From: Bolinopsis microptera
Taxonomy: Eukaryota > Ctenophora > Tentaculata > Lobata > Bolinopsidae
Length of the DNA stretch: 64,000 nt
Reading direction: 5' to 3'
Assembly: GCF_026151205.1 (NCBI RefSeq)
Contig: NC_087081.1
Location: forward strand, 10,169,113 to 10,233,112
Below, piece after piece: positions 1 through 54,729 of this stretch. Numbering within the stretch: the stretch's first letter is position 1; every line of letters begins with the position of its first letter. A program made the translations under genes and the position numbers. The notes below the pieces were generated by a model. The model was not told the origin of the DNA. It saw nothing but the letters and a program-made list of their open reading frames with translations, and made no database searches.

Positions 1-270
1 TTAGTAGGGTGGCACATACCAATAGTGGTTAGTAGGGTGGCACATACCAATAGTGGTTAGTAGGGTGGCACATACCAATAGCGGTTAGTAGGGTGGCACA
101 TACCAAGTGGTTGGTAGGGTGGCACATACCAATAGTGGTTAGTAGGGTGGCACATACCAATAGTGGTTAGTAGGGTGGCACATACCAATAGTGGTTAGTA
201 GGGTGGCACATACCAATAGTGGTTAGTAGGGTGGCACATACCAATAGTGGTTAGTAGGGTGGCACAAAAG
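1..270 (-). repeat. 28-bp minisatellite built from a K2P exon end plus its splice donor
   Basis: About nine to ten tandem copies of a 28-bp unit run from the left edge into the pore-1 exon of K2P-1. Read on the minus strand, each unit is the last 22 nt of that exon (codons for the ATLLTTI part of the pore) followed by the first six intron bases GTATGT. Every copy therefore repeats a usable 5' splice site. Copies are nearly identical; one carries a small deletion near 105-115. The array lies in the intron just after the exon and may continue outside the window. Confidence 0.93.
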
Positions 271-3200
271 TCAAGGGACGACCAGAAATTCCACAAGTTG
301 TTCTCAGTATGACGGTTGTTGATCTGATGGCATCTCGGTCTGTGGAGGTCCGCTAGAGCTCTCCAGTAACTTTCGTTCATACCTGATAGAGGGACAGAGG
401 GAATAATGCAATAATGCAGAGCCACTTTAATGACTGTCAATTGCTTAGTGGGTTTCGAACGTTTTTAAAAGAACTCTTAAATATTTCCTGCACTATTTCC
501 TAGGACTTTATATACCACTGATTTCGCTCACCTTTTATATAGTTCTCACTGTATGATCAAGCTATATAAAAATGTTAGAAACCAATTTCATAAATTGTCT
601 TAGTGCATAACTTTGAAATATGTAGGTATAAATATTCATTCACTTTCTATAGCGATTATGATAGTTCAAGATTAAACCTTTTGATCGGTTCAATAGAGTG
701 TTAGTGATCCGGTTATTCTTTACGTAAATTCGTTTCCCATATTTACAAACTGCTTAAGCGTACAACTAAAACCAACTCATACATGTAGTTATCTGTGTTG
801 TACCAGTAATACTGTTTGTATTTAAATATGCGATCAAATTCAACCAATCCTAACAGAGAAGTTGGTTGTTCAACAAAATAAACCCATAACTTCAATTTAG
901 TGGATAGTCACACCCCCTTATCATCTTCAATCGCTTGATGAAATATAAACAGTATAGGTGTATAAATATGAGTTATACTGTTAGTATTAAGGATATGTGT
1001 TATACCAGTAATACTGTTTGTATTTAAATATGCGATCAAATTCAACCAATCCTAACAGAGAAGTTGGTTGTTCAACAAAATAAACCCATAACTTCAATTT
1101 AGTGGATATTCACACCCCCTTATCATCTTCAATCGCTTGATGAAATATAAACAGTATAGGTGTATAAATATGAGTTATACTGTTAGTATTAAGGATATGT
1201 GTTATACCAGTAATACTGTTTGTATTTAAATATGCGATCAAATTGCACCAATCCTAACAGAGAAGTTGGTTGTTCAACAAAATAAACCCATAACTTCAAT
1301 TTAGTGGATAGTCACACCCCCTTATCATCTTCAATCGTTCGATGAAATATAAACAGTATAGGTGTATAACTATGAGTTATACTGTTAGTATTTACGATCG
1401 CGCGATAATGTTTCAACAAGCCGGATAATGATGATTGTTCCAAAAATATAGATTAATACTTACTTCAATCTGATTCTAAACTCAAATCAATAAATGAAAT
1501 TGCGCAGGTTCCTCAACATTCATAAACGGTTATAAAGAAGAGATGAAATAGAGTCGAAATAATATTTCAATGTTGCCATGAGGTGTCCAGTGTCAAATCC
1601 TATTCATCACAACCCACTAGTTTACTGCCACTTAATATAATATAAGTTTATAACGATGCGATAAAGTCCCTCCACTCTTCATGCTCACTTAACTCAATTT
1701 AATAAATGAAATTGTTCAGATTCCTCAACAATTTACATCGGACAGTCAATCATAAATGGTTATGATGAAGCGATGAAATAGAGTCGATATAATATTTCAA
1801 TATTTTCATGTCGCATCCATCACAACCCACCAGTTTCACTGATTCTTAATATAGTGAGGTGATGAAGTTCCTTCACTTTTTATGCTGAATGGACCAACAA
1901 AAAAAATCCCAACTTTTCTTTGGTTTAAAATAGTCACAGGTACACTCATTCTTATTAACTTAATGAACTTATTAACTTAATGAACTTATTCATTCTTGAA
2001 TGCTGTCTGAAATACTTAAATAGTATTATTATGCAACAAAATCCCCCCATCGCCCCAAACAGTATACAGTGATGCTGACTGCACCAAAAGTACAGATTAA
2101 ACATTTACTACTGTTGAGTTTAGTCGCAACCCCTCTTTTTAATTTACCTATTTTAACTCATTTTAATTTTACCCCTCATTTTAATTTACCTATAATGAAA
2201 TTTCAGGGTCTTATCTGCCGTCTGAATTTGATAGTTTGATGAATTTTTTGCAAGTAGTTATTGATATTTATTTAAAGAATTTTTTGCAGGTTGCTCTAGA
2301 CTAGACATGGTAATTTAAGTTAGTGGTCTGACATCAATCAGTTTAAAATGTAATATATATATAGCATATTGGTCTGTGGACCTCTCCAGTAATTTTAGTT
2401 TATGCCTGATAGACTATATCAGTGATAAAGCTACAAAGGGATAGAAGGGATGATGCAATAATAGTCAGGATCTGTGACTCTGTTGAATGCAAATCAGTTT
2501 GGTTCCGTTCCAATCCTCACAGCGGCGCTGGTTGTCCAAAATATTAATCCTTACCCACACGTATAAAAGTATAAGTGGGCCGTGCGTAATCTGCGTATGT
2601 ATGCCGTGCGTATGTATGCCGTGCGTAAGTCAAACATGATAATCAAATGCGACCATAGTGCCACTTCTGTTCAAAATTTACGTACAAAAATTAAATGATT
2701 TTAGTCAACTACAGTTCATAGTATTTAGTTAAAAGTTTAAGCCATGTTTCGGTTACCAGGTAAATGTTAAATTGTTAATACTTTAATAGATATAAACTGA
2801 CAGGCTAAGGAGGGAACCTTTACTTTGACTATTAGTATTTAGGGAGGGAATCAACCTTTTCGCACGTTACGTTGATAGACAAATCATAGTTCTTAAACTT
2901 AGTGGATCTAAACTGACGCGAAGGTATCCACATAGTCCATACTACCAATACCATAGGTTAAAACATCGTGACTTAAACTTGAAAGTAAAAAATGAACTAC
3001 TAGTCCTATAATAGGGCACTAAAACTCTAAAAGCATATTGAAAGAAAGTTTTACCATGATTATGCCATTTGCGAAAAAAAATGTAACACTCTTGTTTTTC
3101 GCTATTAATTTCCTCTCTTGCTTTGTGCATGATGCCACTAAAACAGCATGCTAGTAAATTTAATTAAAGTGATTTTTGTTCCAACCTTGTCATGAGTTAA

Positions 3201-5264: not shown

Positions 5265-5924
5265 GGTCACTGGATTCTCAGGCGTAGCGATATTTTGCTT
5301 AATACTTTAAAAAGTGTTCGCTTAAATGTTGGCTAAATTTTTCTCCAATGAGTAACATTTTTGGGTTCATTTTGGGGTTTATGATATAAAGATGAGTATT
5401 AAGGCTCCATATTAATGCTTTGCTGAAAAGGGTCAAGTTTCTTGAAATCTCTAAATCATTGAAGGATAACAGACAACGAAAACGATCGCTTCTCTACTTA
5501 GAAATTCAGAAAACCAATTTGTACGATAAAGCACAACGCATGACCACAGAGAATCATAAACTTAGCTCACAGTGAACATATTAACGTTATTTTCAGGAAG
5601 TTTGTGGGTGTCGTGAATTTTATAGAAAAGTGAAGGCTTTATTACATAATATGGGTGTAGTGACTCATGAACAGTTTGATTATTATTACAATTACAATGC
5701 TTGAATGGTAGGATCCTATGTGATATTAAGTTGTTATATTATTAGTAACTACACTAGGTTTTAATTAGTTCTGTATGAGTTTTCTTAATTAATCATATTC
5801 CCCTTTCATAATGTAAGGTGGATCAAAGAATTTTGACAGGGATTTATATTATATTTTCCTACAGTTTGGTTTGGGGGTGACAATAATTATAGTAGTAGAG
5901 TCTCGTATAACTGGATTGATTTGT
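5265..5924. other. Intergenic spacer between K2P-1 start and the 28-bp satellite
   Basis: AT-rich sequence upstream of the K2P-1 ATG exon. It probably holds that gene's promoter, but no convincing core element could be picked out by eye. No coding signal was seen on either strand. Confidence 0.4.
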
Positions 5925-7810: not shown

Positions 7811-8328
7811 TGGCGGTAATCTGGTACGCTTGCAACAGGTTGCGATTATGAAATAATAGCAAAAATATAACTCGAAATTAGGAATTTTCAGTGTGATTCT
7901 ATTGACATTTTGAGATTTCAGCGCGCAGTTTTTTACGGCCGTGCAATTTTAATACTCGCATTTAATTTTAAACACTCAATGCTAGATACAATTACACAGA
8001 TACAACCCATTTAGGATCTTACTTGAACTGTATTGCTAGATGCAGAATCAGCTTGTACGTATTAGTCAGTAAATAGAACAAAAAATAAATATCTCTGATT
8101 ATGCTAATATTAAAGGAATGGCGAAAATACTCAGCAGAGAAAAATTTAGGAGAATTGACCTATAATATGACTCAATGTAGCACGCTCCGGGTAAGTCCAT
8201 CAGAAATGGACAAGTCGTAGAAGTAAGTCTGACAAAAAATAAATAATAGTCATAACACCAAACTGTGCTCTGAGTCTATCTCCAAAGACATATCGGGTCC
8301 TCTGATTACTCCTTGACCGTGACAGTTC

Positions 8329-8700
8329 AGGCACTCTGCAGTGTCACTAAACCTCTTGTGCCACAGGAAGAAATACTCGATATTCAGGCACTCTACACTG
8401 TAGAGTCTACAGTTTCATTAAACCTGTTGTGCCACAGGAAGAAATACTCGATATTCAAGCACTCTACAGTGTCACTAAACCTCTTGTGCCACAGGAAGAA
8501 ATACTCGATATTCAGGCACTCTACACTGTAGAGTCTACAGTGTCATTAAACCTGCTGTGCCACAGGAAGAAATACTCAATATTCAGGCACTCTACAGTGT
8601 CACTAAACCTCTTGTGCCACAGGAAGAAATACTCGATATTCAGGCACTCTACAGTGTCACTAAACCTCTTGTGCCACAGGAAGAAATACTCGATATTTCG
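8329..8700 (-). repeat. 57-bp repeats derived from the last codons of K2P-2
   Basis: Units of about 57 bp plus a shorter variant carry ACAGGAAGAAATACTCGATA. On the minus strand this is the coding sequence for the final EISSISSCGTRGLVTL residues and stop of K2P-2, repeated downstream of the real stop at 8,649-8,651. Some copies hold an extra 23-bp TGTAGAGTCTACAGT insertion. Several open frames cross the array on both strands only because 57 is a multiple of three; they are not treated as genes. Confidence 0.9.
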
Positions 8701-18670: not shown

Positions 18671-18709
<39 letters not shown>

Positions 18710-21700: not shown

Positions 21701-24700
21701 CCGCCGATGATGATCTTCCGGCCGATGATCTAAACGGCGTACAAGGCGTGAACCTGTTTATACGCCGAATGCGCCGTTTCGTAATTTTGGCAAGAATTTT
21801 TTGAACGAAATCCAACATTTCAGACCATATTATTTTCTATATAATTTCTCGTGTTAACATTCAAAACTGTTAAAAATTGCTCTCCACAGGGCATTATTCT
21901 AGAGGAAAATTTAATTTGCGAAATCACGTGACCTCACGTTGATTACGCCATCACCGATTTTAACCACGCCGCTGCCGTTAAAAAAACGGCGGCGTGCAGC
22001 ACTGTGAATACGTAAAGACCACACATTAAATGCAAAATTTAGTGACTTGACAAAATTTTAATGGTATGGCAAGAATGAACAAATTTGCTAGTATAGATAG
22101 CATGGCAAATGTCACAAGTCCATTATAAACTGTCCATTTTAAACAAGTCCATTATATTAAGCTGACACAAGTCCATTATGATTATGAACGAGGTACGGAT
22201 CTGCGTTCTGCAGGCGGCACTGGCCCGCTCTGTCTGTCGCAGGAATCGATTCGCGACCGGGACATGATTTCAGGCCTGACTGGGACCGGGACCGGGACCA
22301 AGAATCCTGAATTAACCGGGACCGGGACCGGGATCATAAATCAGCATTTGACCGGGACCGGGACCGGGATGAAAAATGTGACTTGACCGGGACCGGGACC
22401 GGGATAGCTCAAAATTGCCAATCCCGGTACCGGGATTCCCGGTATCGGGAATTCCGGTCGACTACTGGTTAATTCATGATCATAATTGATTACTCAAACT
22501 TGTTTAGCAATTTTAAACATTGTTTTATTTGGCTCAGAGGATGTTTAAAGATGAAATTCACAATGAATGAAAAGAAAAACTTAAAATCACAGCGAATGAA
22601 ATTATGTAAAAGATCCCGGTCAAAATCCCGGCAAATTTGAGTGATTGACCGGGACCGGGACCGAGACCAAGAATCCCGAATTAACCGGGACCGGGACCGG
22701 GATCATAATTCAGCATTTGACCGGGACCGTGACCGGGATAGCTCAAAATTGCCAATCCCGGTACCGGGTATCCCGGTCGATTCCTGGTCTGTCGCTATAG
22801 AATATGTTCATATTTCGCTTAGGTTTCCTTCACATATTACGTAATCAGCTGAGGGGGAGGGGGGTTTCCAAATGATTACACTAGTGTAATTTTAACACAA
22901 TAGCTGTGTAAAACTGATTACGGAAGGGGTAGGGGGCTTAAAAATTGTCCAAAAAGTGAAGAAATCTATACTTTTAATACGCTCGTATATCTTTAACCTT
23001 GCTACTAAATCACGAGACCTGACCCATTATTCTCTCATAAAGATGTAGTGAATATACGGTCACGAATTGCAGACAGGGTATGAATATTTTCTTGCGAATT
23101 ATGAATATTGTTTTGCGAACAGAGATTATACTACTTTAATATACTTCAACTTGTTGTACGATCTCGTTGTGTGACCAATCACAGACTTATAAATACGGCA
23201 TGTGACTCGGTGACTGGTTCTGACGAACAGAGATTTTAACTATCTTATATGATTTTAACCCAACTCCATTCAGAGATTTTAATATGTATGTGTTATTCTG
23301 ATCACGTGACTTTTAAAGATGCAACCAATCAACTATAACTACTATAGTCACTCGAGAAATTGAGCCTCTCTGGTTTGGCTACCTTAAATTCGAACCTCTC
23401 TATTTCGCACTCATTTATGAGGTTAACCCTCCGTTCACAACAAATCTTACTATATATAAAGCGAGACGATATATATATATATATATATGGATCCGTGCCA
23501 TTTTACTGACACCACGGCATCAACTTTAACGCGAATTTCCGCAAAAACCGTTAAATTTGCGTTAAAATTGATGCCGTGGTGTCAGTAAAATGGCACGATT
23601 AAATATATTTAAAGTCACTATTGTGACGGTACATCACTATTGTGACGGTACATTAGGGCCTGAACGGAACCCCTCGGTTTCAGTTCCTTGTTTAACACTG
23701 CCGTACAGCAAGGACATTCGCCGGGTTCTCCAAGGATGGGCACATAGCTCACTCCACACAATGCTCTGTCAAATGTTGCTTATATACCAAGGATCTACAG
23801 GAAATATTTCCTTGTAAGTTTTAGAGGGCGATCTGTGAACAGACAACTACCTCATTCCCAACTATAGGAACTAGAATTCCTATACTATCCCAACAAGCTA
23901 CACCAAGCATAGTTTCAGATGAGAACAGCCGCGATAATTCAGCAGGCTAGTACTCTTGATTATATATATATATCGTCTCGCTTTTTATATAGTAAGATAT
24001 GTAATAGGTCGGGTATTGAGCCATTTAACTGATTTTACCCAAGAGTTTCGCTATCTCTAAGAAAAGGTCTTGCTATCCGTACCGCGTCGTAACTCCATAT
24101 GGCTGGAGTTATATATAATATTTAAATAATAGAGCTTTAGAGAGTTGTCTTATTTAATGTTTTAATTCGGCCAAAAAGCCAAAAGGGAACAAATATGGGC
24201 CTGGCTACACGCGGGCACCATGCAGAGCGTCCAGGACCCCATCATGCAAAGGTTCGGTCATGAGGGGTACCAACCTGTAAATCCCTTTACTGAATATGGT
24301 ACAGTGCCATGAGGGGTACCAACCTGTAAATCCCTTTACTGAATATGGTACAGTGCCATGAGGGGTACCAACCTGTAAATCCCTTTACTGAATATGATAC
24401 AGTGCCATGTCTACCAACCTGTAAATCCCTTTACTGAATATGGTACAGTGCCATGAGGGGTACCAACCTGTAAATCCCTTTACTGAATATGGTACAGTGC
24501 CATGAGGGGTACCAACCTGTAAATCCCTTTACTGAATATGGTACAGTGCCATGTCTACCAACCTGTACAGTGCCATGTGGGGTACCAACCTGTAAATCCC
24601 TTTACTGAATATGGTAAGGTACAGTGCCATGAGAGGTATTCCCAGAAGTGAGTAGAGGATAGTGAAGTAGCGTCCCATATCTGTTTTCGGGTACATGTTA

Positions 24701-27700
24701 CCGTAGCCTGAGGTTGGTTATCTCGTAAGTAAAGATCCCAAATTTCTGCTCGGCTGGTAATGGAATGGTTGCAAGTTAAGCTTTCTCAATTTTACTTAAT
24801 TGTAGCATGAACAGGTTATGTTATCAAATTCTTGGAATTCTTGTAATTCTGTTTTTTTATTGAATGAAACAATAGAATTTTCAGACTACTAGACGCAAGG
24901 TGTTAAAATCCAACGTGTATAAACTGGAGGTAATGAGAAATTGACTTTACGAATCTAGTACATGTACTCTAGTTCTAAAGGAGGAAGGTATCTCTTTTGT
25001 TCAATTCAATCTATTATCTTTGGTATATTCTGTTCTTGTTATCTTCGAAAGTGAGGCTTGTTGGCAGTTCATCCTCTTAGAGAGGGCTCCAAAGAAGACA
25101 GGTCCCACAGCTGCATCGTCCACCAAGTGTTTGGTAGGCATGTCAGTATCGGAAGCTTTCCGCTTATTCAGGTTCTGATTAGCAGTGTAGGCAGTAGTGC
25201 TACACGCCGCCGCCGTTTTCAAACGGCGTACACGGCGTGAACCTGTTTGTACGCCGAATGCGCCTTTTCGTAATTTTGGCAAGACTTTTTTGAACGAACT
25301 CACAGATATTACGAGCCTCCAGTCAAAATTCAAAACTGTTCAAAATTGCTCGCCACATGACATTATTCTAAAAGGAAAATTTAGTGTGTAATGCACGGAT
25401 ACAGTTAACGCCGTGTAGCAAGAGCTTCAGAGGATCCTGCCCGCTGCAGGTATGCTGAGTGGCAGATGCGACAAGCGCACTTCTTTCAGTGGACATCAAG
25501 ATGGCAGTCTGGAACATCAGAGTTATTCAGAAAACTCTCCCTTTTAACTAGAAACATGTTGATGTCACAGTTTCTAGCCTACTTCTGCTGTAAGAACCTT
25601 CTCACAGCTTAATTACTTACGGTTCTGTGTACTGAGGCACAAAACCTACTCCGTTCTTTACGGAAAGATTCCATCGGTGACAGATACTATAAAGACACGA
25701 AGACTTCGTTTTGCAGGACATGACTACCGTCTACAGGACCAACCTGCTCAACAACTCCTTTTTTGGCAACCATCCTATGGCCAGCGCGGCGTTATCGAGG
25801 ACGACCATATAAGACCTTCCCGAACGTTCTACGTGAAGACACTGGAATGGAACCTTACAAGCTGCGTTTGCTCATGTGTGATAGAGATAAATGGAGAGAA
25901 GCGTTGACACTTGACACGGAACTCGTTCCAGATTTTATCTGGATCGACCCAGGCAGGTAAGCTAGGCAGGCCGACGCGTAAACAGTGACAAATTTGTTAC
26001 CTAAATTGAGAAGCAGTGAATAATTGAGGAGAGTCCGCGTTTGGTTCTGGGTTGACCACCCCCTCTTAATTGTATCTTGGTCACTAATCTCATAGATACC
26101 GATTAACAAGCGTTACAGCCTAATAATATGTCTTATTTCTAATCTAAGTCAATTCTTGCTAGCCCGAGCAACCCCTTCTATTATAGATTCCTTCGAGTGA
26201 GTCTATAATCGAGCAAAGAGGTTTTAGTTTTACGCAGGAAGTGTTATCCTTATCATACATCTTTTTTATTTGTTATTCCTATTTGATAAATTTATCTCCG
26301 TCACTTAACTTGTCTAATTTAGAACTTTACCGTTACTAACTTGTCCGTTACATGACCAGACTTCATATAGTAATACTAAACCCTTGTGACTCCAGTTTCT
26401 ATTTTTCATTCGCGTTAACGCATTTTCAGACAAATCATATTAAGGGATAGAAAATTTGATTAATCTAGCTGGCATACTCATCCAATATCTATACAAGCTG
26501 CGGTATTAAAAATAGCAACATTATTTTTCTGATTTAACAACGATTAATATAAGATATCATATAGCTTTCTGCTTTATATTTTTATAGAATACTTAGAATC
26601 ATGTTGAGGGGAAACAATTTAATTGTTCGGCAATCTTAGCTATCTTGAATCAGACACGTTGCAACTTGCAATCACATTAAGTTATCCGATGAGATACAAC
26701 ATAAATAAATCCATATCTATCTGTTATCGGCGATTTTAGCTATCTTGAATCAGATACGTTGCAATCACATTAAGTTATTTGTTGAGATACAACATAAATA
26801 AATCCATATCTAATTTTAAAATTATCAAGATATTTAAGACCAATTTTCGCTGATAATATTTGCTTCCCGTATGATAAGATGCTCTTGTTAAGCTTATCAG
26901 CACCTATTCGTAGCAGATTAACATAATCGGCAAACCCCCGTGGTATAGTCGCACTACCGACTCTCAAACAGAGGTTCGAATAAAATCCGGGTCGTTCTTT
27001 TCTAGAATGTGAGCTAAGAATTCTGTTGGATCTATATGCATCATTACACATCTCTGTAAATTGCAGTTGACTCAACCGAATGATCGGGAAATTGTAATCA
27101 AGGTTTAAATGAGAAGTTTCCAATTACAGCGACGTTATTTCTAAATATTAATACTGCTGTTTTCTGACGAAGTACTTAAAGACCACTTAAAAATACGAGG
27201 TTTTTAAGCATTTATGACACATTTTTGACACATTTTTGACATATTTTTGATTTTAGGCGTTTCAAAAAGGGGGTTTCTGAGAGCCAGCGATTGATTCTAA
27301 TAGTTTCTGATGGTTTTCAGGGATAGTTCTTGACCCTAAAAAGAAATTTGGGTGAAAGAATTCAGAATTTCAAAAATGGTCTTTAAGCACATTTGTCAGA
27401 AAACGGCAGAATAGTAAGTCGGTATTAAGTATTAACACTATTGTTTTGAACGTACTGGCTCTTTTTTACTAAGTTTGTTGACCTTGATCATGGTCAGTTG
27501 GTCACGACCCCTCACATTACATAGGATTATCGCATTAACTAAGAAATTATTTATTTGCTGTCAATTAAAATAAGGTGCGATAACGATCTGGCTAATTGAA
27601 GTGCTCAGATAAAATAGTTAAAACTAGCAGATAAACTATCGATATAGAATTAAACATAGGTACTGATTGCCATAGTTTGATGATAAAATTCAAATGAAGT

Positions 27701-28561
27701 AGTTTCACGAAATAAGATTATATAACTCACTATAATAATTATAATTATTAATAATAATAAAATCTGACCAATAGTAGTGAGGACTGTAGCGCAGAAATCG
27801 AGCGAGGACCAGAAGTTCCACAGTCGTTTTTGGGTGTTCACATTGTCGATCTTATAACATTGTTTGCTGTGAAGCTCCTTAAGCTTATCCCACTCGTCTT
27901 GCGTGAACGCTGAAATTGTTATAAAATTCATGTAGTTATAAAGTTATTTTACAACTGTACAAATGATTACATTTATTGACAATACGAATTACGAAATGTT
28001 AAGTTTTTTTTGTTAAAATAATCGTAAAATTCATCGTAAAAGAAACCCATAAATGTGACTCACGTCTGTGGTGATAGCTTGTGTTGTCCTTGTTGTCCTC
28101 TTGATGCTTTTCCATGAAATATTCCAGATCGTCTGAAAGGTTCGAGTTGTGGACCTCTACTGTGTATCTGCACAAAGAATTACTAATTACTAATCATAAT
28201 TACTAATTACTCATTAGAATTACTAATTACTAATTAGAATTACTAATTACTAATTAGAATTGCTAATTACTATCAATTAGTGAACATGTTTGAAACTTGG
28301 CTCGACTGGGTACTTGGATAGTAGGGTAAAATAAGTAGCAAAATGATACCGAAACTGAAATCAGTCGCTCGCTTTTCCCGGTCGCTCGCTCGCTTTTCCC
28401 ATTACATTCATTCATTTGCAACAAAATATGAATGATAACCTGTGGTTATTCTCTATTTGTTGAAACCCAAGTGATCCCAGCAAGATGAAGATAATATTGA
28501 CAGCCAACAGGATTACAGATCTCAGGTTGGCTTTTGTGCTCCCATCCCATGCGTCTCCAAC
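8649..28561 (-). CDS. K2P-2: two-pore-domain potassium channel, nearly complete
   Basis: Plasma-membrane potassium leak channel. Minus-strand exons: 28,440-28,561 (M1, NIIFILLGSLGF), 28,064-28,167 (cap), 27,769-27,909 (pore 1, LWNFWSSLDFCAT then TTI), 24,590-24,707 (GYG filter, then LLGIPLMALY of M2), 15,968-16,099 (M3), 14,589-14,736 (pore 2, TTVGTGDI), 9,917-9,977 (M4) and 8,649-9,006 (basic cytoplasmic tail of about 118 residues, stop TAG). All junctions are GT-AG. Phases join except between the M2 and M3 exons, where the nearest acceptor is out of phase; an upstream acceptor at 16,154 inside a repeat restores the frame, or a small exon is missing. The first filter is canonical; the second reads GTG. 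An N-terminal exon upstream of 28,561, like the ATG exon of K2P-1, was not found. The visible part is about 395-412 aa. Confidence 0.87.
9766..9804 (-). pseudogene. Partial copy of the K2P-2 M4 exon end with its donor
   Basis: The stretch around CTTATTTTCCAACAGTAGAT repeats the last part of the M4 exon (9,917-9,960) and its donor, about 150 bp further downstream in the intron, with a few changes. It is too short to code and has no matching acceptor. Confidence 0.7.
10150..10907. other. K2P-2 intron sequence without recognised content
   Basis: A slightly GC-richer patch (10,290-10,510) inside the large intron between the pore-2 and M4 exons. Two overlapping short open frames on opposite strands look like chance. 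No repeat partner for it was seen in the window. Confidence 0.35.
10908..11145. repeat. Dispersed repeat, copy A
   Basis: Matches 16,983-17,226 over about 240 bp, sharing GCACCAATGTAATTATGGT, ACCGTGTTTTGGTTCAGCC and CAGGAGATATTGTGGTCTTT. Clear terminal repeats or target duplications were not found, so the class is unknown. Both copies lie in K2P-2 introns. Confidence 0.85.
11468..11615. repeat. Three tandem copies of a unit of about 55-59 bp
   Basis: Units start with TTCTGCTACAGAGATAG or a variant and end near AATTTTAGGA. Simple intronic tandem duplication, no coding content. Confidence 0.85.
12658..12914. repeat. 143-bp period tandem duplication
   Basis: Two copies, 12,658-12,772 and 12,801-12,914, share TTAGCGAAGTTTAGTGCAGT through GACACTTTATCACGT with few differences. 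Intronic to K2P-2. Confidence 0.9.
13497..13645. repeat. Four tandem copies of a unit of about 41 bp
   Basis: Unit core TTGGAAGTAGATCTGGCCCT followed by GATATATCAGACTAAT. Intronic to K2P-2, between the pore-2 and M4 exons. Confidence 0.9.
16096..16265 (-). repeat. Repeat of about 54 bp carrying copies of the M3 exon acceptor
   Basis: Three to four diverged units adjoin the 5' border of the K2P-2 M3 exon. On the minus strand each unit contains AATTTCAGGTTTT, the same motif that forms the real 3' splice site at 16,099/16,100. The copy at 16,154 gives an alternative acceptor, adds 18 codons without a stop, and fixes the phase mismatch with the M2 exon. Confidence 0.82.
16983..17226. repeat. Dispersed repeat, copy B
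   Basis: Second copy of the 240-bp repeat at 10,908-11,145, with small deletions relative to it. Same orientation, in the K2P-2 intron between the M2 and M3 exons. Confidence 0.85.
18466..18607 (+). CDS. Isolated first exon resembling a GPCR exon 1
   Basis: An ATG opens 47 codons ending in a GTGAGT donor at phase 1. The peptide has a short N-terminus with an NIT glycosylation site and one hydrophobic helix, VLYINIIAAIDFFLALF, then the first base of a Gly codon. The full-length receptor at 32,135 begins the same way: short N-terminus, TM1, donor at phase 1 in the Gly of a TM1 G-N motif. No following exon was found downstream, and the exon lies wholly inside the hAT-like element 17,614-18,889. 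It may be captured, or the remains of a gene broken by insertions. Family assignment rests on form, not on a diagnostic motif. Confidence 0.5.
18672..18708. repeat. (GT)n microsatellite
   Basis: About 18 GT units followed by CTGTCTGT repeats, inside the hAT-like element. Confidence 0.98.
19088..19278. mobile_element. 191-bp MITE with TA target duplication, Tc1/mariner-like
   Basis: Ends are CAGTTTAGCTATA and its reverse complement TATAGCTAAACTG, each preceded or followed by TA. The interior has further inverted blocks (GGCGCGATAAAGCGC). Length, CAGT ends and TA flanks fit a Tc1/mariner-derived MITE. Confidence 0.75.
19300..21340. other. K2P-2 intron stretch, no assigned gene
   Basis: Contains small palindromes (for example ATATCGGATATCAAAC around 20,120-20,160). 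A plus-strand open frame of 130 codons at 20,376-20,768 has no family motif I recognise, and its composition follows the AT-rich background. Near 21,220-21,320 a short CCGTGCCTTAA motif is repeated irregularly. Confidence 0.35.
21343..21400. repeat. Half copy of the palindromic element at 23,494-23,597
   Basis: Shares CCATTTTACTGACACCACGG through the CGCAAAAACCGT block with the complete copy, but the second arm is missing. It is followed by a C homopolymer of about 26 nt at 21,428-21,453. Confidence 0.75.
21686..22004. mobile_element. hAT-type MITE, copy 1
   Basis: Starts CAGTGCTGCACGCCG and ends with the complement CGGCGTGCAGCACTG. It is flanked by a perfect 8-bp duplication TGAATACG (21,678-21,685 and 22,005-22,012). 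Internal sequence is shared with 25,192 and 45,369. Open frames across it (AAGILAKI and so on) are repeat-derived and not genes. Confidence 0.92.
22240..22786. mobile_element. hAT-like element filled with GGGACC repeats
   Basis: Ends CAGGAATCGA and TCGATTCCTG form terminal inverted repeats, flanked by a perfect 8-bp duplication GTCTGTCG (22,232-22,239 and 22,787-22,794). The interior has two related blocks of GACCGGGACCGGGA repeats (22,255-22,460 and 22,645-22,785), each ending near TCCCGGTACCGGG. A 67-codon frame of DRDRD repeats arises from the repeat and is not counted. Confidence 0.88.
22826..22940. mobile_element. Partial copy of the Harbinger-like MITE
   Basis: Shares CACATATTACGTAATC, GTTTCCAAATGATTAC and GTGTAAAACTGATTACG with the full element at 40,544-40,744, in the opposite order. 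The outer terminal repeats are degraded. Confidence 0.75.
23444..24000. mobile_element. Inverted-repeat element with TCTTACTATAT ends
   Basis: The left end ATCTTACTATATATAAAGCG plus AGACGATATATATATA is mirrored on the right by TATATATATATCGTCTCGC plus TATATAGTAAGAT. A weaker trace of the same end occurs at 33,780-33,830. The interior includes a nested palindrome. No transposase was seen; the superfamily is unassigned. Confidence 0.7.
23494..23597. repeat. 104-bp nested palindrome
   Basis: Arms CGTGCCATTTTACTGACACC and its complement flank a centre around AACCGTTAAATTTGCG. It is nearly perfect and inserted inside the element 23,444-24,000; a half copy lies at 21,343. Confidence 0.9.
24252..24635 (-). 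repeat. Array of about 49-bp units made from the K2P-2 M2 exon end plus donor
   Basis: Seven to eight copies, two of them truncated, extend from inside the exon 24,590-24,707 into its downstream intron. On the minus strand the unit is the last 42 nt of the exon (starting at codons for PLMALY and ending TTTACAG) plus intron bases GTTGGTA. Each full copy thus carries the exon end and a 5' splice site. Most copies have lost the four bases that keep the exon frame open, so only the exon copy is a full coding version. Confidence 0.92.
25192..25395. mobile_element. hAT-type MITE, copy 2, truncated
   Basis: Begins CAGTAGTGCTACACGCCG and follows copies 1 and 3 through GAACCTGTTTGTACGCCGAA and ATTCTAAAAGGAAAATTTA, then diverges. 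The second terminal repeat is missing. Confidence 0.8.
25640..25960 (+). pseudogene. LINE reverse-transcriptase C-terminal fragment
   Basis: Translation gives VLYGKIPSVTDTIKTRRLRF followed by AGHDYRLQDQPAQQLLFW and, after a frameshift near 25,790, GRPYKTFPNVLREDTGME and MCDRDKWR. This matches the tail after the RT domain of many animal non-LTR retrotransposons (RRLRFAGH, GRP, DTG, DR..WR). The frame is broken and the rest of the element is absent. It lies antisense in the K2P-2 intron between the pore-1 and M2 exons. Confidence 0.8.
26625..26810. repeat. Tandem duplication of about 95 bp
   Basis: Two copies share CTTAGCTATCTTGAATCAGA or a variant, then ATCACATTAAGTTAT and ATAAATAAATCCATATCTA. 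Intronic to K2P-2. Confidence 0.85.
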
Positions 28562-31940: not shown

Positions 31941-31949
31941 TAGGCGGGA

Positions 31950-32012: not shown

Positions 32013-32134
32013 CCTGCATATTTTCGGTTTTTGAAATGATGTCTTGGAACAAATTACCCAGGACTAATCTTTGAAAAATTAATTGTTCGTACTTTAATGA
32101 AAATGAATAATAACAGACACTCCTGCAAAGCAGA

Positions 32135-35100: not shown

Positions 35101-36337
35101 TTCTGGAAAACGTCCACCTGCCGTCTTAGAGAATCTCGTTCATCTGTCAGCATCTTTGCCGGATAATTGGGCTATGTCCGGCATTTTAATTTCATAATAG
35201 CAATTAACGTTCCTTATGTTCCGAACGTTAAAATCTTTTAGCAAACGCGTTCACAAACTATTTTTAGTGAACGTTCCGTACGTTCACTACAACTAAGATT
35301 TAAATCATTAGTTTGCAATTATTTAGAAGGAAATTGGACATTTCCCAGAATAAAAATGTAACAACATTAGCATACCGATACCTCAGATCTACATATCATT
35401 TTTCCTGAACTACGAGCTGATCCTAATCCTACTGATCCTGGCAACAGTGCTGATAGCTGTCAGTGCTATGAGGTTACAGAGGAGCAGTGCCAGCGCCGGA
35501 ACACAACTGCCACCCCACAGTAAGTTTAAATTAGAGACTGCCCCTATGTCATGGGCAGCTCTTTTTAAGGCAATTATCCCACCCCACCCCCAACTCGATG
35601 CCCTTTTAACTGCTGGCTATAATACATTTTTCTGTAAGCAAGGATTTTGGGATTTTATTTGTTAGAGGCCTTGAAACTGGGGTAACCATGCGCAAACTTG
35701 GTAACCATGCGCAAACTTGGTAACCATGCGCAAACTTGGTAACCATGCGCAAACTTGGTAACGGCTGCATTGTAATTATACAATAATAACAATTATAGTG
35801 ACCCGGAATAGTTTTACAATACCTTCAGGAATCCCAAAACAGTTTTAGAATATATTCGGAATATTTGTTATAAAACCAAGAATAACTTAGAATACCCGGA
35901 ATGTTTTTCATAAAACCAAGAATAACTTAGAATACCCGGAATATTTTTTATAAAACCAAGAATAACTTAGAATACCCGGAATTTTTTCAGAGTCAGACCA
36001 GGACGACATGTTGACGTGTGCTATCTCCATTATGGTGACCTCGATATTCTGCTACTCCATCTACATTGGCTTCCGATTCGTCAACATTCGCAATATTACC
36101 GTCTCCAAATTTGTCTTCTTCAATTACAAATATTTCAAATGTTTTTCGGAGCAGATTCTTTTGAATCTCAATTCTGCAGTTAACCCATTTTTGTATATTT
36201 TGTATAATCGGAGTATCAAAAGAAAGTTGATATTGAATAAGATTTTGAAGGCCAAACATTCAAAAAAATGCAATGCAAATTATTCCAATTCCATAGTGTT
36301 GTCCAGGATAACTTCTTTGAGGGAGCAACAGATCTGA
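32135..36337 (+). CDS. Rhodopsin-like G-protein-coupled receptor, orphan, 341 aa
   Basis: Seven-helix plasma-membrane receptor in six phase-consistent exons: 32,135-32,243 (start, TM1), 32,577-32,746 (TM2), 32,966-33,136 (TM3-TM4), 34,217-34,312 (end of TM4 and second outer loop), 35,387-35,519 (TM5), 35,991-36,337 (TM6-TM7 and tail, stop TGA). Family marks are the TM1 N after the G, an R-rich first inner loop, a Cys at the start of TM3 (NWCPFF) paired with a loop Cys (VECMI), and NPFLYILYN in TM7 for NPxxY, followed by a basic helix 8 (RSIKRKL). DRY at the end of TM3 is missing; the aligned position reads TKA. The start is the first ATG before TM1 and includes an NAS glycosylation site. The third exon's acceptor is the least certain. 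The ligand cannot be told. Introns hold tandem repeats and a hAT relic. Confidence 0.83.
33463..33541. repeat. Short array of GTTAACT/GTAAACT units
   Basis: About eleven units of 7-8 bp alternating AAACTGT and TTAACTGT, in GPCR intron 3. Simple sequence without other content. Confidence 0.95.
34136..34216. repeat. Array abutting the acceptor of GPCR exon 4
   Basis: Five units of about 15 bp of the type TACATTATAAATTG run directly into TTTTTCAG, the 3' splice site of exon 4. The array supplies the branch-point region of this intron. Confidence 0.9.
34350..35306 (-). mobile_element. hAT element relic in GPCR intron 4
   Basis: Left end TTAGTTGTAGTGAACG and right end CGTTCACTACAACTAA are inverted repeats, with further inverted GTGAACGTT blocks inside each end. 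TTTAAATC stands on both sides (34,350-34,357; 35,299-35,306) and may be the 8-bp target duplication, though two extra bases on the right and its palindromic core leave doubt. A broken transposase frame lies inside. The element is shortened to less than 1 kb. Confidence 0.75.
34661..35153 (-). pseudogene. hAT-family transposase fragment (DUF659-like), frameshifted
   Basis: Two overlapping minus-strand frames give first CTLTTDGWKDLSSHPLVNFI with HDAVNATGVEKTA, then ADRICHVVTDNPNVNKSLRR and CCVTHQFDLLAEDVGKL. These are the hallmarks of the DUF659 part of hAT transposases (TDGW, NATG..KTA, VVTDN, C..H..DLL.ED..K). The N-terminal zinc finger and C-terminal dimerisation region are absent and the frame shifts near 34,990, so no active enzyme can be made. 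Confidence 0.85.
35687..35765. repeat. 19-bp tandem repeat
   Basis: Four copies of GGTAACCATGCGCAAACTT in GPCR intron 5. Confidence 0.96.
35820..35990. repeat. Array of about 43-45 bp abutting the acceptor of GPCR exon 6
   Basis: Three to four units with ATAAAACCAAGAATAACTTA and GAATACCCGGAAT. The last unit merges into the T-tract and CAG of the exon 6 acceptor at 35,990, so the splice-site T-tract is itself part of the repeat unit. Confidence 0.9.
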
Positions 36338-36339
36338 AA

Positions 36340-37980: not shown

Positions 37981-37982
37981 TA

Positions 37983-38152: not shown

Positions 38153-38159
38153 TGCCGTG

Positions 38160-39020: not shown

Positions 39021-39028
39021 TATTTTGA

Positions 39029-40744: not shown

Positions 40745-40749
40745 TAAGA

Positions 40750-41965: not shown

Positions 41966-41969
41966 CCAG

Positions 41970-43172: not shown

Positions 43173-46100
43173 TTAAATCCCAGGCCCAAGAAAGGAAGTA
43201 GGAACTAAACCTGCCGTACTAGCAACCTCTTCTTTGTCCCCCTCTGCAACCTCTTCTATATTTCTGACAATAGAAGCAATACTTGCTCTTCTCATCTGCG
43301 AGGCGGTCTTAAGGATTTCCTCCTCCGTATCTACGTCTAGCTGACTATTTGTAGAACCTGAGACGTAATTAACTTATTAAGTAATTAGCTTATTAAGTAA
43401 TTAACTCATTTATTAAATTATCAGATGTTATCCTTTCAAGATATTTCCGTAACGGAAACCTTTTTAGCACTTAAATCTTTTCTTAAAAATGTTAAAAATG
43501 TTAAAAATATTAATTATTCTAATCAACTATCTAATCTTGGATAAATAAAGGTGTTACTAGCAATGTAAGTAATGTTTTACCAGCAATATAAGAAAGGTGT
43601 TTAAACCGGCAATATACGAAAGGTTTTATCAGCAATATAATAAAGGTGTTACCGGCAATATAAGGAAGGTGTTACCGGTAATATAAAAAAGGTGTTACCG
43701 GCAATATAAGAAAGGTGCTACCGGCAATATAAGAAAGGAGTTACCGGCAATATAAGAAAGGTGATGCTCCAGAAGGGTGTCAGAGGTGATACTGGATTGT
43801 CTGGCTGGGTTGTAAATACCAGAAATTTTTCTCTCCTTATCCGCTTCCACCTGAGAGAGCACAGCTAAATAACGCACTGTTAATTAAAGAACTCATATTA
43901 AGGTAACTGATAGATTCATTTTTCTCGGCTCCATTCTCCAATCATCTAGTCTAGTGGATGTTTATTGTTTAAGGGGGCAGGGGGGGGGGGGGGGGCTTTA
44001 TGAAAATTCTCTCGAAATTGACTTAATAGTTGTTTTTGATAGAGGAGTGATATCTATCAGCTATTTTTGTTCCTAGCCGAAATTATTGCCGGTCAAAGGT
44101 CAGCGCATATGTGTAATTGTATTGCGGGAGCGATTTTAAATCGCGTGCCTTGAAAATCGAGTCTAAAAATCTATCATCTCCTACATTTTTTGAGCAATTG
44201 CCTTGAAATTATCAGGGTATGTTCTAAGGACCATAATATACTTGAGATTCTGTTCTATCAGAATTTTAAGATAAGCCTTATTCGATTTTTTAAATCTTGG
44301 AGTACCTCGTTTTTTGACGATTTTTTCAGGTCAAAGATTTTCACAATTGAATAAAAAACAGAATCATCTAAATGGCCCTTAGAATATATCCTGAAAATTT
44401 CAAGGTGATTGCTCAAAAAATGTAGGAGAAGATAGATTTTTAGACTCGATTTTCAGGGCGCGCGATTGAATATCGCTCGCGCAATACAATTACACATTTA
44501 AGCGATGACCTTTGACCGGCAATAATTTCGGCTAGGAACAATATTTTGTTAGTGGAACCAAAAGCAGCAGATGAATATCACTCCCCTCGACCCCTCTATC
44601 AGAAACAACTATAAAATCAATTTCTAGAGAAATTTCATAAAGACCCCCTGCCCCCTTAAACATGTTCGGTTCCGAACGGCGAACGTTCGTTTCTCGATCA
44701 CAATCAAATATCAATCGATAACACGAATCCTAATAACCACTACTCTTGCACTGAACGGATGCGACAGACGACAGTTGGGGTGACCGATAACTGTACCAAA
44801 TTTGACCTAGTTCCCACACAGTTAACAGGGCGCCTAATCAGCTTAATTGGGTTCCCAATCAGCCTAAATCTCAAAACGACGACTGAAAACGTGATCATTA
44901 CAGCTGCACCCAAATACGACATCTGGACCCAAATTTGTTTAGATCAGACTATACAATTCATTACCTAAATTAATTTCTTTAATTATTTAATTGTTTCTAC
45001 TTCTTTCTTTGTTAACTTTAATAACTTTAACTGAAACTCTACCTGCCACTTTAGTTTCCGCTCTGGAACATCGCTAGGTCCCTTCACTTTGGAACGGAGC
45101 CAATCCACACCACGAACAAACTCAGTCATGTTCCCGGATTTGCCTGAATTGAAAATAATCATTAATCTATTAATGAATTATAGCATCCATAACACGTTTG
45201 GATGCTGTCAAATACACTTCTATTGATTGGTCAGCGTCGACAGTAAGCCTTCCTTTCGGTGGCTTTCACAACGCGTCCCCATTTCTCCAACTCTTGCTGC
45301 TGGAGAGACTCCCAAATTATATACCATAAACATTTATTAAACATAGATATCGACAACAGACTCCGAGACAGTGCTGGACGCCACCGCTGTTGATTTTCCG
45401 GCCACGCCGCCGCCGTTTTCAAACGGCGTACACAGCGTGAACCTGTATATACACCGAATGCGCCGTTTCGTAATTTTTGCAAGGATTGTTTGAACGAAAT
45501 CCAACATTTCAGACCATATTATTTTCTATATAATTTCAACACGAGTGGATACTGCAGCAGGCATCACTAATATCGATATTTTCCCGTCGATCTACAAATG
45601 TCTAAGAAATACGTCCCGCTATAACCACGTCACATGACATGGAGGAACGCACACGCGACTTCTAAAATTAAAAACTGTTAAAAATTGCTCTCCACAGTCC
45701 ACATGGCATTATTCTAGAGGGAAATTTAATCTGCGAAATCACGTGACCTCACGCCGATTACGCCGCCGACGATTTTAACCACGCCACCGCCGTTTTGAAA
45801 AAATACGGCGGCGTGTAGTGTAGCACTGCTCCGAGAGTCTTGAAGTTCTGTTACCACCGCCCCTGGTGCAATCCTGCCGGGTTAACAACGGAGAGACAGG
45901 GACTTCCAGGGGAGATCATGGCCTTATATGTTGCCTCTGACTTCTGCTGTCTCTGATTTAACTAAGAGACAATTTAACTAATTTCCATTCTAATTCCATA
46001 TTTCATTAAAATTTCATCGAAGCATACTTATAAAAAATATCGTTCGAAAAACATATGAAAGTTATCACCAGAAAAGTTGTTAGTTTTCTTGTTCATGGTG

Positions 46101-52100: not shown

Positions 52101-54729
52101 TGCTAGTGACCGTGGTTATTGGAGTAAATTGTTTAACTTTATACTTGAGTACAAGTCAATTTGATTATTCTAAATTCTAAATTATTTTAGGATTGTTGAC
52201 ATTTGTAAGATTGACATGTTTGATAATAATAATTGATTAAGTATCCTGATAAAGTATTCTTTGATTGAATTAATGACCCTCGATTTGCATACTATCGTTA
52301 ATAAATCAATAATTCAACTTAATAACCTTAGTTGGACGGATCATATTACGTTTAGTAGTCCAATCAAGTAGTTAATTAAATGTTTAACTTAAATAAATAA
52401 TTAATTACCTGCGGAGACTCCTGAAAGCACGGAGTACTCTGAGGATTCTCAGGATTCTGCTGTTACTGATGAAAGTTAGACTTGGTCCAATGAGAGATGA
52501 CGCCACAATTATAAAATCAAATATATTCCACCCCACCTGAGGGCAGGTTTATTGTCAACAATAGACAAAAATATATTCTTTGCACCCCATGGCCCATATA
52601 TATGCAGACTTGGAGGAATTTATTAATTACACAGTAAATCACCAGATGATATTATGCACAAACCTTCCAGTAGGTAAAGAATTTATTAATTACACAGTAA
52701 ATCACCACTTCGAGATGGCAGGGCCTACTCTCGAAGTGATAATAATAATTAAATGTTTCGCAGTAATAATGATATTACGTTGAACGTGTAATGTAAATAT
52801 AGTGTGGATATATGCGAATATATATTCTAATAACTAGTAAATCACCAGATGATATTATTTACAAACCTTCCAGTAGGTAAAGAACCCACCGTACCACTTC
52901 AGAAGAACTTCACATATAAATATGGTGAGAATGAGCTGATCCAGTGCCGAAAACAGGTAACCAAACTTCTGCTCCTGAGAAGCAGCTTTGTGTTTGTCAC
53001 GTGCTATGAAATTTGTCACGTGCTATGAAATTTGTCACGTGCTATGAAATTTGCCACGTATTACTATATTTGCCACGTGATATTATTATTTTTATCACGT
53101 GCTATCATATTAACAATTGTCACATGTTATTATCATACTGGGAACGGTTGTGGATGATCGGCATTGTGTAAAAGAACATGAAAATACCTAATCAAACATA
53201 TTATGTACGACTGGTGATGTTTGCCAAATATTTGCCTATTTCACGTTGTCATATCCTCCACATTTTTTTAAACAGTGATTATAGTTTAGTGAAAAACTCA
53301 ACTGAACTGAAATTTACCACTGATACAGACAGACTAAGGTCTAAGTGACTAACCATTTCTTTGTCAGTTTGCAGGGCAATGAAGACGGAGTTGATCACGA
53401 TGGTACTAAGGATGAACGTTCGGAACGCTGTGCATTCGATGAAATCTGAAGTACGTTATACTAAGTTCTGACATAAATCAGTACCTGGAAAATTCATTTT
53501 AACGATTTAGACCTCTGCTATATGATTATATTATACAAACTGTGTTTTAAGAATAAAAAACATAATCACCGCTAACGAAGTTGTTTTTGGTTATCTGTTG
53601 TTTGTCCTCCTCATCATAGTCGATTATAGAGCTGAACAATTAGATGTCATTAACAGTTAAAACCGTTATTATATGAAGTAGGAAATAAGTCAAATCTGTA
53701 GAGCTAAAAAACTAGCAGTATGAGCCGAAATACGAAAATAGATATAATACGAATGTATCCAAATTAAACAATTTATAATTAAACAAGACCAATTACGCAG
53801 CACCGCATACTTTATGTCGGCGTGAGAGTTCTGAGGGGTGTCGTTGTTATCGTCCTTCAAGTTAAGTTTGAGCTTGTTCCTCATCACGTCCTTCATGTCC
53901 TTCTTAGCGAATAGTTTGTCGTGGAGCTGTTCACCCCACATGGACAATCTTCCTCCTCCATCTCTCTCGCCTGGATAAAATATTTCATTGTGGTTCAGAG
54001 AAATTCTTGTCTGGTAGTGTTCATGGTGTTTTAATATTTCTTATTCATACTCCTTAGTTATTGCTAGAATACGCAGGTGACAAACGCTGTGGTTTAAAAC
54101 TAGAAGAAAATATTTCAAAACGGTTAACTATAATTATCACTTCGAGATGGCCAGGCCTACTCTCATGCTGTCTATATGTGATGATTAACTCTGAAAAACT
54201 AGGGACAACTGGGGAATGATCCCAGAACCTCGAGATTTCGCGTCTCTTGCTCTACCAATTGAGCTACTGACCCTGATTCCCAAAGCGAAATCACCACTCA
54301 TATACAGCACAATTTCATGCTTTATATAGTGTGGATACATGCGAATATATATTCTAAATAACTGGTTAACTATAACTTTTAACACTACTATATAATATTA
54401 TAAAAAATGATTTAAGGAGATTCTCTAAAGATGAAATTTTATTACTTACGGGTAGTAGCATTAGAAGTAGCATTACTTACGGATAGTAGTATTAGAAGTA
54501 GCATTACTTACGGGTAGTTGCATTAGAAATAGCATTACTTACGGGTAGTTGCATTAGAAATAGCATTACTTACGGATAGTAGCATTAGAAGTAGCATTAC
54601 TTACGGGTAGTTCTATTAGAAGCAGCATTACTTACGGGTAGTTGCATTAGAAGTAGCATTACCAAATATGCCCGCATTGTTAGCTGTTAGTCGTCTCATT
54701 TTGCCGCCCCAACCTTTAGATACATCCCC
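43173..54729 (-). CDS. CATSPER4: CatSper4-like sperm cation channel subunit with a very long C-terminal tail
   Basis: CatSper channels carry calcium into the sperm flagellum; four pore subunits form the tetramer. Nineteen minus-strand exons join in phase: 54,663-54,729; 53,811-53,970; 53,570-53,631; 53,354-53,445 (S1); 52,867-52,974 (S2, CEVLLKW); 52,409-52,536 (S3 GWNIFDFIIV and S4 RILRILRVLRAFRSLR); 51,402-51,460; 51,057-51,167 (S5, DMANIILLLV); 49,287-49,351 (pore, TLFICITLDGW); 49,032-49,133 (S6, FILIGAFILINL); 48,808-48,874; 48,382-48,575; 47,960-48,130; 46,764-46,869; 46,381-46,669; 46,069-46,199; 45,043-45,143; 43,745-43,850; 43,173-43,357. The order S2-S6 and the post-S6 helix fit CatSper4 best. 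From the first ATG in exon 1 the protein is about 757 aa, against roughly 470 in mammals. If exon 15 is read through, a stop at 46,371 gives about 586 aa. The tail is acidic, then coiled-coil-like, and ends with an RRAS phosphorylation-type site. A further 5' exon may exist. Confidence 0.88.
43550..43765 (-). repeat. 23-bp array built from the end of CatSper4-like exon 18 plus donor
   Basis: About nine units of TTACCGGCAATATAAGAAAGG plus TG. On the minus strand each is the last 19 nt of exon 18 (codons for HLSYIA) plus GTAA of the donor. Copies follow the exon in the intron, so exon end and splice site are repeated over 200 bp. Older copies toward 43,550 are more diverged. Confidence 0.92.
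43973..44655. mobile_element. Long foldback element bounded by TTAA, copy II
   Basis: A near-perfect palindrome of 683 bp centred near 44,314, flanked by TTAA at 43,969-43,972 and 44,656-44,659. Ends are GGGGGCAGGGGG and complement. Arms contain AAATTATTGCCGGTCAAAGG and its complement. No coding frame of note. It lies in a CatSper4-like intron. Confidence 0.92.
45369..45828. mobile_element. hAT-type MITE, copy 3
   Basis: Starts CAGTGCTGGACGCC and ends GGCGTGTAGTGTAGCACTG. Flanked by a perfect 8-bp duplication CTCCGAGA (45,361-45,368; 45,829-45,836). It shares GAACCTGTATATAC and CATTATTCTAGAGG blocks with copy 1 but has about 140 bp extra in the middle. Located in a CatSper4-like intron. Confidence 0.92.
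47327..47596. repeat. 270-bp dispersed repeat, copy A
   Basis: Matches 60,875-61,148 closely, sharing AAATGAGTGGGTTTCGTGCA (one base differs), GAATCCAGAAAATTGCGGAA and ACACATGGCTAGCGTCGCGC. No terminal repeats were identified. It lies in a CatSper4-like intron. Confidence 0.88.
49674..51029. mobile_element. Long foldback element bounded by TTAA, copy I
   Basis: A 1,356-bp, almost perfect palindrome centred near 50,351, flanked by TTAA at 49,670-49,673 and 51,030-51,033. The right end, read inward, is GGCTGGGGGTTCACCCTGA; in the left arm the G run has expanded to about 16. It occupies the CatSper4-like intron between the S5 and pore exons and stops 24 bp short of the S5 exon's donor. Frames with DPNRQTVPAGQPRPYL occur in both arms and reflect the repeat, not a gene. 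Confidence 0.95.
51494..52164 (+). pseudogene. LINE reverse-transcriptase 3' fragment, frameshifted
   Basis: The first frame reads KLLGSLLESRKDVTRRIMLA, KKLKVYEAQVVSILMYNSSC and WDKLDACHRNHLRKIMNVSW, the thumb and connection after the RT catalytic core of non-LTR retrotransposons. After a frameshift near 51,890 the second frame continues RWKMLGHILRSDERSPAQAA. The catalytic YADD region is missing. A short AATAATAATTG tail follows at about 52,222. It lies antisense in the CatSper4-like intron between exons 6 and 7. Confidence 0.88.
52993..53110. repeat. 20-bp TTTGTCACGTGCTATGAAA array
   Basis: Five to six units, the later ones diverged, begin about 19 bp upstream of the CatSper4-like S2 exon. 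Each contains CACGTG, an E-box-type palindrome; a regulatory role is not implied by the sequence alone. Confidence 0.9.
54202..54273 (-). tRNA. tRNA-like sequence, probably a pseudogene or SINE head
   Basis: Seventy-two nt fold into a full cloverleaf: acceptor GGGTCAG with TTGTCCC (one mismatch), D arm GCTC/GAGC, anticodon stem AGAGA/TCTCG, T stem CTGGG/CCCAG. The A box TAGCTCAATTGG is perfect. The anticodon would be CGA, but base 33 is G in place of the invariant T, the T loop ATCATTC departs from TTCRANY, and there is no long variable arm as in tRNA-Ser. Flanking sequence is partly shared with 52,705-52,835, suggesting an insertion into a repeat. Confidence 0.5.
54437..54662 (-). repeat. 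31-bp array starting at the donor of CatSper4-like exon 1
   Basis: Seven units begin precisely at the exon/intron border (54,662/54,663). On the minus strand each unit holds CCCGTAAGTAATGC, a stronger donor-like motif than the real donor GGTAATG of the exon. Copies vary only in a few bases. Confidence 0.92.

Follow-up and report, generated by a model that had tools for sequence, protein, structure and literature searches.

Minisatellites that lie across exon-intron boundaries and tandem duplications that make introns have both been described, as far as the available parts of the following papers go. Human segmentally duplicated genes contain internal tandem repeats, on average four 30-bp units, some of which are found at exon-intron boundaries (PMC2812944), and tandem duplications have made introns in fission yeast, Drosophila and potato (PMC3629103, PMC2891723, PMC4974935). 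Here, we describe minisatellites in the ctenophore Bolinopsis microptera that copy the 5' splice site (donor) of the intron in which they lie. The work started from a window of 64,000 nucleotides (NCBI RefSeq assembly GCF_026151205.1, contig NC_087081.1; C10:10169113-10233112 in our numbering) that holds such arrays in two K2P genes, K2P-1 and K2P-2, and in a CatSper4-like gene. Arrays of this kind recur in other genes, the positions of some of their introns are shared with related genes, and nearly all of their copies keep the donor GT. We read them, with a probability of about 0.7, as ordinary minisatellites that have grown in a genome rich in repeats and are tolerated where they cross donors, with a moderate preference for donors that is likely but not secure.

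The closest described systems are similar to these arrays in some respects and differ in others. The human repeats also cross exon-intron boundaries, in recently duplicated genes; the available text describes novel introns in primate-specific paralogues, whereas the introns described here are shared with paralogues, belong to conserved families and contain up to ~52 copies (PMC2812944). In the potato RdRp gene, the duplicated segment crosses an intron-exon boundary, as here, but in Bolinopsis we see no new intron, and an old donor has been copied many times (PMC4974935). The fission yeast SPOG_01682 and SOCG_00815 introns, which consist of 24-nt tandem repeats, likewise hold multiple exon-derived units inside an intron; unlike the introns described here, they were gained, they carry the proto-splice sequence AGGC in their units, and the available part of that paper gives two cases only (PMC3629103). 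Minisatellites at exon-intron boundaries are therefore known from human. Among the titles and abstract openings listed by our literature searches, we met no report of minisatellites at ctenophore splice donors or of donors copied this many times, and it is the ctenophore setting and the scale that appear to be new.

The assembly comprises 264.65 Mb in 232 contigs, 13 of them large, and all matches listed for the families that we searched fall on contigs C1-C13. Its size and number of large contigs fit B. microptera: the species has 13 chromosomes (PMC10232365), and a published table entry gives 265 Mb, 13 chromosomes and 346 scaffolds (PMC11797021). Tandem arrays were called with Tandem Repeats Finder (TRF; minimum score 50, minimum unit 7 nt). 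They occupy 12.9% of the window, 14.7% of the kinesin and myosin pieces, 10.8% of the K2P sequences fetched and 15.7% of the sequence in the 265 intron models described below. The overall load is similar to that of the Hormiphora genome, in which TRF finds 14 Mb (13%) of tandem repeats; unlike here, the text consulted of that paper mentions no association with junctions (PMC8527503).

Anatomy of arrays at donors

The clear cases are minisatellites, with head-to-tail units of 20-67 nt in 2-53 copies, and they span the exon-intron boundary in the kinesin and myosin cases, K2P-1, the CatSper4-like gene and a further K2P pair (L011 and L012; L numbers are our handles for loci). The donor-straddling units consist of the end of a coding exon followed by an intron start of the GTAAG type in six of the nine cases from the first sample of introns described below, in L058 and in L011/L012. 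A preliminary description of the window, made from the sequence alone, had stated that the units at the K2P-1 pore exon, the K2P-2 M2 exon and CatSper4-like exon 18 equal an exon end plus an intron start, that one array starts exactly at a donor, and that arrays at junctions recur across unrelated genes. All three statements are borne out: the units measure 28, ~49 and 23 nt, respectively, the array in CatSper4-like intron 1 abuts the exon 1 donor, and junction-straddling arrays are found in K2P and CatSper4-like genes and among unrelated kinesin, myosin, chaperonin and dynein genes. The features of the window are listed in Table 1.

Table 1. Arrays and exons of the window (positions count from its first nucleotide; a slash marks the splice site)
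Feature	Position	Strand	Remarks
K2P-1 minisatellite, 28-nt unit	1..266	-	Across the P1-exon donor; ~25 nt of exon in first copy
K2P-1 P1 exon	242..464	-	Frame open up to 464; exon end ...LLTTIG, phase 1 within first G of GYG
Array, 57/71-nt sub-units	8326..8697	-	Repeats the final ~49 nt of an open frame, TAG stop (8651-8649) included
K2P-2 minisatellite, ~49-nt unit	24259..24622	-	Straddles M2-exon donor ACAG/GTTGGT at 24590/24589
K2P-2 M2 exon, after P1 intron	24590..24707	-	(G)YGNMYPKTDMGRYFTILYSLLGIPLMALYLTIFSKGIYR; Ion_trans_2 match
K2P P1 exon, assigned to K2P-2 (M2 exon 24590-24707)	27769..27943	-	Open frame from 27943; donor without array
40-nt array	35857..35989	+	Reaches acceptor-like CAG of an open frame; AG itself uncopied
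CatSper4-like exon 19 and stop codon	43173..43357	-	In frame with exon 18 via first donor
CatSper4-like minisatellite, 23-nt unit, 9.3 copies	43547..43763	-	Straddles exon 18 donor; 19 nt of exon included
CatSper4-like exon 18 (of 19 modelled)	43745..43850	-	Exon end 43745
CatSper4-like intron 1 minisatellite, 31-nt unit with GTAAGT, 7.2 copies	54441..54662	-	Edge 0 nt from exon 1 donor
CatSper4-like exon 1 of model	54663..54729	-	Upstream exon or untranslated region possible

The K2P-1 array has 10.5 copies in total, and 26 nt of it extend to the left of the window. Its donor, G/GTATGT within the first glycine codon of GYG, is correct because the next exon, which lies outside the window in L002, starts with /GGTATGG (GGTATGGAAACATG) and restores GYG in phase 1. 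Given the 28-nt unit, this exon is in frame only from the first donor or from copies 3n later. The donor of K2P-2 is less certain because its next exon was not found; we looked for the next exon or acceptor after the M2 exons of K2P-2, L011 and L012 and found none. The M2 exon of K2P-1, which is related to that of K2P-2, stops 10 nt earlier.

As a family control, 13 K2P P1 exons were located in the genome, and the 11 beyond the window were fetched. An array crosses the P1 donor in two of the 13 genes only, K2P-1 and L001. Their flanks are ~94-96% identical and their arrays hold 10.5 and 11.5 copies; most simply, the two arrays represent one event that is older than the gene duplication. L011 and L012 carry a 67-nt unit across the M2 donor, in 23 and 7 copies, and copy number thus differs between paralogues in both pairs. 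In another K2P gene, L004 (C8:16157507-16160572), a 41-nt unit present in 28.7 copies starts 37 nt downstream of the P1 exon, and the split-glycine junction typical of K2P genes is not obvious.

The CatSper4-like gene, modelled with 19 exons, matches the ion-transport domain. Among the best 60 of 142 matches to solved structures, CatSper4 leads the single-domain channels, behind multi-domain calcium and sodium channels. The exon 11/12 junction of the model is out of frame: one frame stays open through exons 1-11 and a different one from exon 12 to the stop in exon 19. Given the 23-nt unit, exon 19 is in frame only from the first donor or from copies 3n later. Within this gene, a donor is straddled in one of 18 introns, compared with 0.26 expected, a case that had been preselected by the preliminary description. 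Separately, the end of exon 5, its donor and ~40 nt of intron recur in altered form ~200 nt further downstream, within the intron (window 52620-52900, minus strand), a copy of a splice junction that is dispersed and not tandem.

One array found with a donor word (C1:14124772-14125043, minus strand) has a unit read as EEGEECDCGTEE/GTAAGT, in which we take EEGEECDCGTEE to begin an ADAM disintegrin domain. A disintegrin search of the genome gave three matches, the best of which (columns 30-71, C1:14124313-14124435) lies on the same strand ~340 nt downstream of the array, with the columns between unplaced. The anatomy of this ADAM/disintegrin gene and of the L011/L012 pair is that of the core arrays.

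Placement of arrays relative to splice junctions

Introns were modelled in two samples. Profile-guided spliced alignment (Viterbi) of 31 kinesin and myosin pieces gave 162 introns with 70 intronic arrays, and 20 chaperonin and dynein pieces, for which the test had been fixed beforehand, gave 103 introns with 19 arrays. The aligner and the test were the same for the second sample, with gapped fragments added to the profiles somewhat better. The main counts exclude junctions at exons shorter than 20 nt and two loci, L014 and L034, that are near-identical paralogues. Before these two loci were dropped, 13 of 362 junctions lay inside arrays (9 of 184 donors and 4 of 178 acceptors); the acceptor at L020, 9497, is absent from the later counts. 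For the expectation, each array was placed uniformly within its intron, with an overhang of up to one unit.

Nine arrays of the first sample straddle a donor, compared with 2.70 expected (P 0.001), while the three that straddle an acceptor represent no excess (P 0.52). Six of the nine donor cases are clear, including a 35-nt unit in 25 copies (exon end ...DWVFQG) and a 33-nt unit in ~52 copies (...NTSLSELG), and three are short or low-complexity overlaps. After refitting without splice-site weights, eight of nine straddled donors were unchanged, as were 56 of 66 donors overall in those genes; L058 was not refitted. In the combined set of 265 introns and 89 arrays, 10 arrays straddle a donor against 3.8 expected (P ~0.003), which corresponds to 3.8% of introns (95% interval 1.8-6.8%), and acceptors show no excess (4 against 3.8, P 0.54). 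The excess at junctions proposed in the preliminary description is therefore seen for donors in the combined introns, but neither for acceptors nor in the second sample taken alone. Relative to uniform placement, donors are likely, though not securely, preferred ~2.6- to 3-fold.

A process linked to transcription or splicing, such as breakage at boundaries caused by R-loops or stalled polymerases, might favour tandem duplication at 5' splice sites. The difference between donors and acceptors points in this direction, as does a peak of left array edges 3-20 nt inside the donor (9 against 4.0 expected in the 265 introns, P 0.017). However, right array edges also cluster 3-20 nt before acceptors (12 against 4.0, P 0.0004), hence the clustering is not donor-only, and the second sample stands at expectation. 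The pile-up before acceptors is possibly due to low-complexity pyrimidine tracts scored as arrays.

The same process would be consistent with a count, over the whole genome, of word pairs in which two copies lie 12-42 nt apart. The donor word AGGTAAGT gave 1648 pairs, above all eight control words (38-812). The reversed donor word gave 38 pairs, the control words GTGAAGAT, GGATAGTA and GGTTGAAA gave 812, 307 and 168 (745, 221 and 98 when reversed), and the acceptor-like word TTTTCAGG gave 480 (120 reversed). The reversed donor word was rejected as the sole control (1648 against 38) as misleading, because match counts are overdispersed; for this reason, three further control words and their reverses, plus the acceptor word and its reverse, were added. 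Pair counts are dominated by long arrays. Loci were also tallied by eye among the matches listed, using three control words and a donor part that represents most of one chromosome: over the first 20.6 Mb of C1, 12 donor-word loci were counted, and over 337 Mb, 62 control loci (63 on recount). With 3.8 donor-word loci expected, the excess is about threefold per locus (P 0.0006, or 0.002 when two loci with like units are merged). A single dispersed repeat family accounts for ten control loci; among the donor loci, at least three lack a clear exon end and are simple arrays rich in GTAAG. Taken with the edges before acceptors and the second sample, we regard a splice-linked process as possible but doubtful.

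We are similarly tentative about chance, by which a minisatellite-dense genome would place some arrays on junctions and the preliminary description would have selected those. Uniform placement alone is expected to put 3.8 arrays on donors and 3.8 on acceptors in the 265 introns, the second sample agrees with it, and the donor word is unexceptional among permuted words in the fetched DNA; the combined donor excess, the genome-wide pairs and the locus tally among the matches listed argue against it.

Several results weigh against our own reading of tolerated growth with a donor preference. The second sample, which has low power, contains one straddled donor against 1.13 expected (and one acceptor against 1.13), and since it lacks a donor excess, the true excess may be below the size stated. 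When an exon overlap of at least 10 nt is required, the donor cases fall to 6 against 2.32 (P 0.02), with two acceptor cases. The donors are themselves predictions of the profile-guided spliced alignment. Array coverage is 7.4% in the first 10 nt of introns and 2.7% in the last 30 nt of exons, against 22-26% beyond 200 nt inside introns; a lower coverage near junctions is to be expected if exons exclude arrays. In the fetched pieces, AGGTAAGT occurs 16 times, compared with 17, 13 and 21 times for control words, and forms pairs twice, which 8.6% of 560 permuted words equal or exceed, so the fetched DNA alone shows nothing special; the exact word is found at only 5 of 273 modelled donors. Finally, loss of GT from the copies, which would be expected if decoy donors were harmful, is not seen: GT is kept in 144 of 145 intronic copies (12 arrays, up to five mismatches allowed). 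This retention fits harmlessness, youth or use of the copies. An apparent preferential conservation of GT (Fisher P 3e-5) was rejected as an artefact of variant columns beyond +6 in L022 and of a wrong donor offset in L011/L012; by column, GT is no different from the rest of the unit, with 1 of 24 GT columns variable against 23 of 216 others (P 0.48).

Arrays might also accumulate at junctions without being born there preferentially, if those anchored in an exon persist since deletions of the whole array would hit the exon as well. The clustering of array edges by both intron ends is consistent with such survivorship, but it predicts older arrays at junctions, whereas the median identity is 94% for straddling arrays (n=13) and 92.5% for interior arrays (n=34), and it predicts symmetry, whereas 10 donors and 4 acceptors are straddled, a difference that is not significant by itself. 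We consider it unlikely.

Age of the introns and growth of the arrays

The preliminary description suggested that new introns may have been caught in progress. The introns concerned give no such impression. The K2P-1 intron position (the split glycine of GYG) and its acceptor were found in 12 of 13 K2P genes, but not in L004, and the array in 2 of 13; the count of 12 includes K2P-2, with its exons at 27.8 kb and 24.7 kb assumed to belong to one gene. Position and phase are common to another gene in 5 of 14 array-straddled introns, against 85 of 265 overall, and array-straddled introns do not look younger than others. In K2P-1, in the CatSper4-like gene and in the donor cases of both samples, the array is followed by a separate acceptor. 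This holds for every array whose next exon was identified, so that such arrays add length to an intron and do not create one. Tandem duplication of AGGT-containing exon segments into new introns (the Rogers/Hellsten model) is therefore very improbable here, even though the units hold an exon end plus GT, as that model requires, and cases have been published for fission yeast, potato, Drosophila and human (PMC3629103, PMC4974935, PMC2891723, PMC2812944).

The contribution of an array to its intron ranges widely: it makes up 1720 of 1818 nt in L022, where 98 nt are left, 393 of 599 nt in L029 and 57 of 1851 nt in L025. We also considered whether interior arrays are hidden old copies of junctions, and rejected this: GTRAGT is found in 2 of 74 interior units in sense and 1 of 74 in antisense, compared with 5 of 14 straddling units.

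Under the preferred reading of ordinary minisatellite growth, a short tandem duplication would give birth to the minisatellite, and slippage or unequal exchange, a route that fits the homogeneous units, could then enlarge the array. Where the duplication spans an exon end and the start of the intron, only the first donor copy would need to be spliced, and so the protein would be unchanged. The spliceosome presumably uses this first copy; the copied exon ends would turn into intron, and an old intron would grow by repeats of its own donor. Donors may be better tolerated than acceptors because the donor transcribed first is also the correct one, and this is what we infer to be the cause of any donor excess. 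The copying of a stop-codon end could be explained by a like tolerance.

Other features and implications

Two further claims concerned arrays at other coding edges. The first, that the stop-codon end of a gene is copied, stands in so far as the end of an open frame is repeated together with its TAG in the array at 8326-8697; the frame that this array ends is a putative last exon. The second, that a 3' splice site is copied, could not be confirmed: in the nearest candidate found, the 40-nt array on the plus strand, the units carry TTTTTCAT or similar and not CAG. The open frame beside this array is presumably GPCR-like.

Outside the window, intron 3 of L014 contains a 932-bp insertion (L014:1241-2172) with inverted ends (GGCAACTTGTACGAACACC...), TGTGTCTT on each flank and 11-nt tandem arrays near both ends, and the paralogous intron of L013 represents the empty site. 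The insertion resembles a DNA transposon that has minisatellites of its own and has duplicated an 8-bp target. Within the window, a 373-nt unit in 3.2 copies (61274-62440) and a 28-nt unit in 67 copies (5932-7809) form arrays not assigned to a gene. A cytochrome P450 is encoded by a single open frame of 499 aa (56753-58252, minus strand), and the segment 34661-35171 (minus strand), which has a DUF659 match at 34664-35065, is probably a transposon remnant; we take DUF659 to be a domain of hAT-like transposase genes.

A bolder view of the donor arrays is that a duplication process linked to transcription or U1 binding targets donors and copies 5' splice sites, together with the adjoining exon ends, again and again. 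It would seed minisatellites at ~4% of introns (10 of 265) and lengthen introns at their 5' side, and the spliceosome would, by extrapolation, have to ignore thousands of intact decoy donors. We offer this as speculation that is more likely to be wrong than right. The donor excess, if true, would indicate that DNA duplication has a source linked to splicing. If roughly one intron in 25 starts with a minisatellite of its own exon end, such arrays would be a simple and readable source of intron growth: as the protein still fixes which copy came first, the age and direction of growth can be read. Additionally, natural genes with 6 to 51 spare donors in a row, all nearly identical, provide a test of how a 5' splice site is chosen, whether as the first made, the strongest or the nearest.

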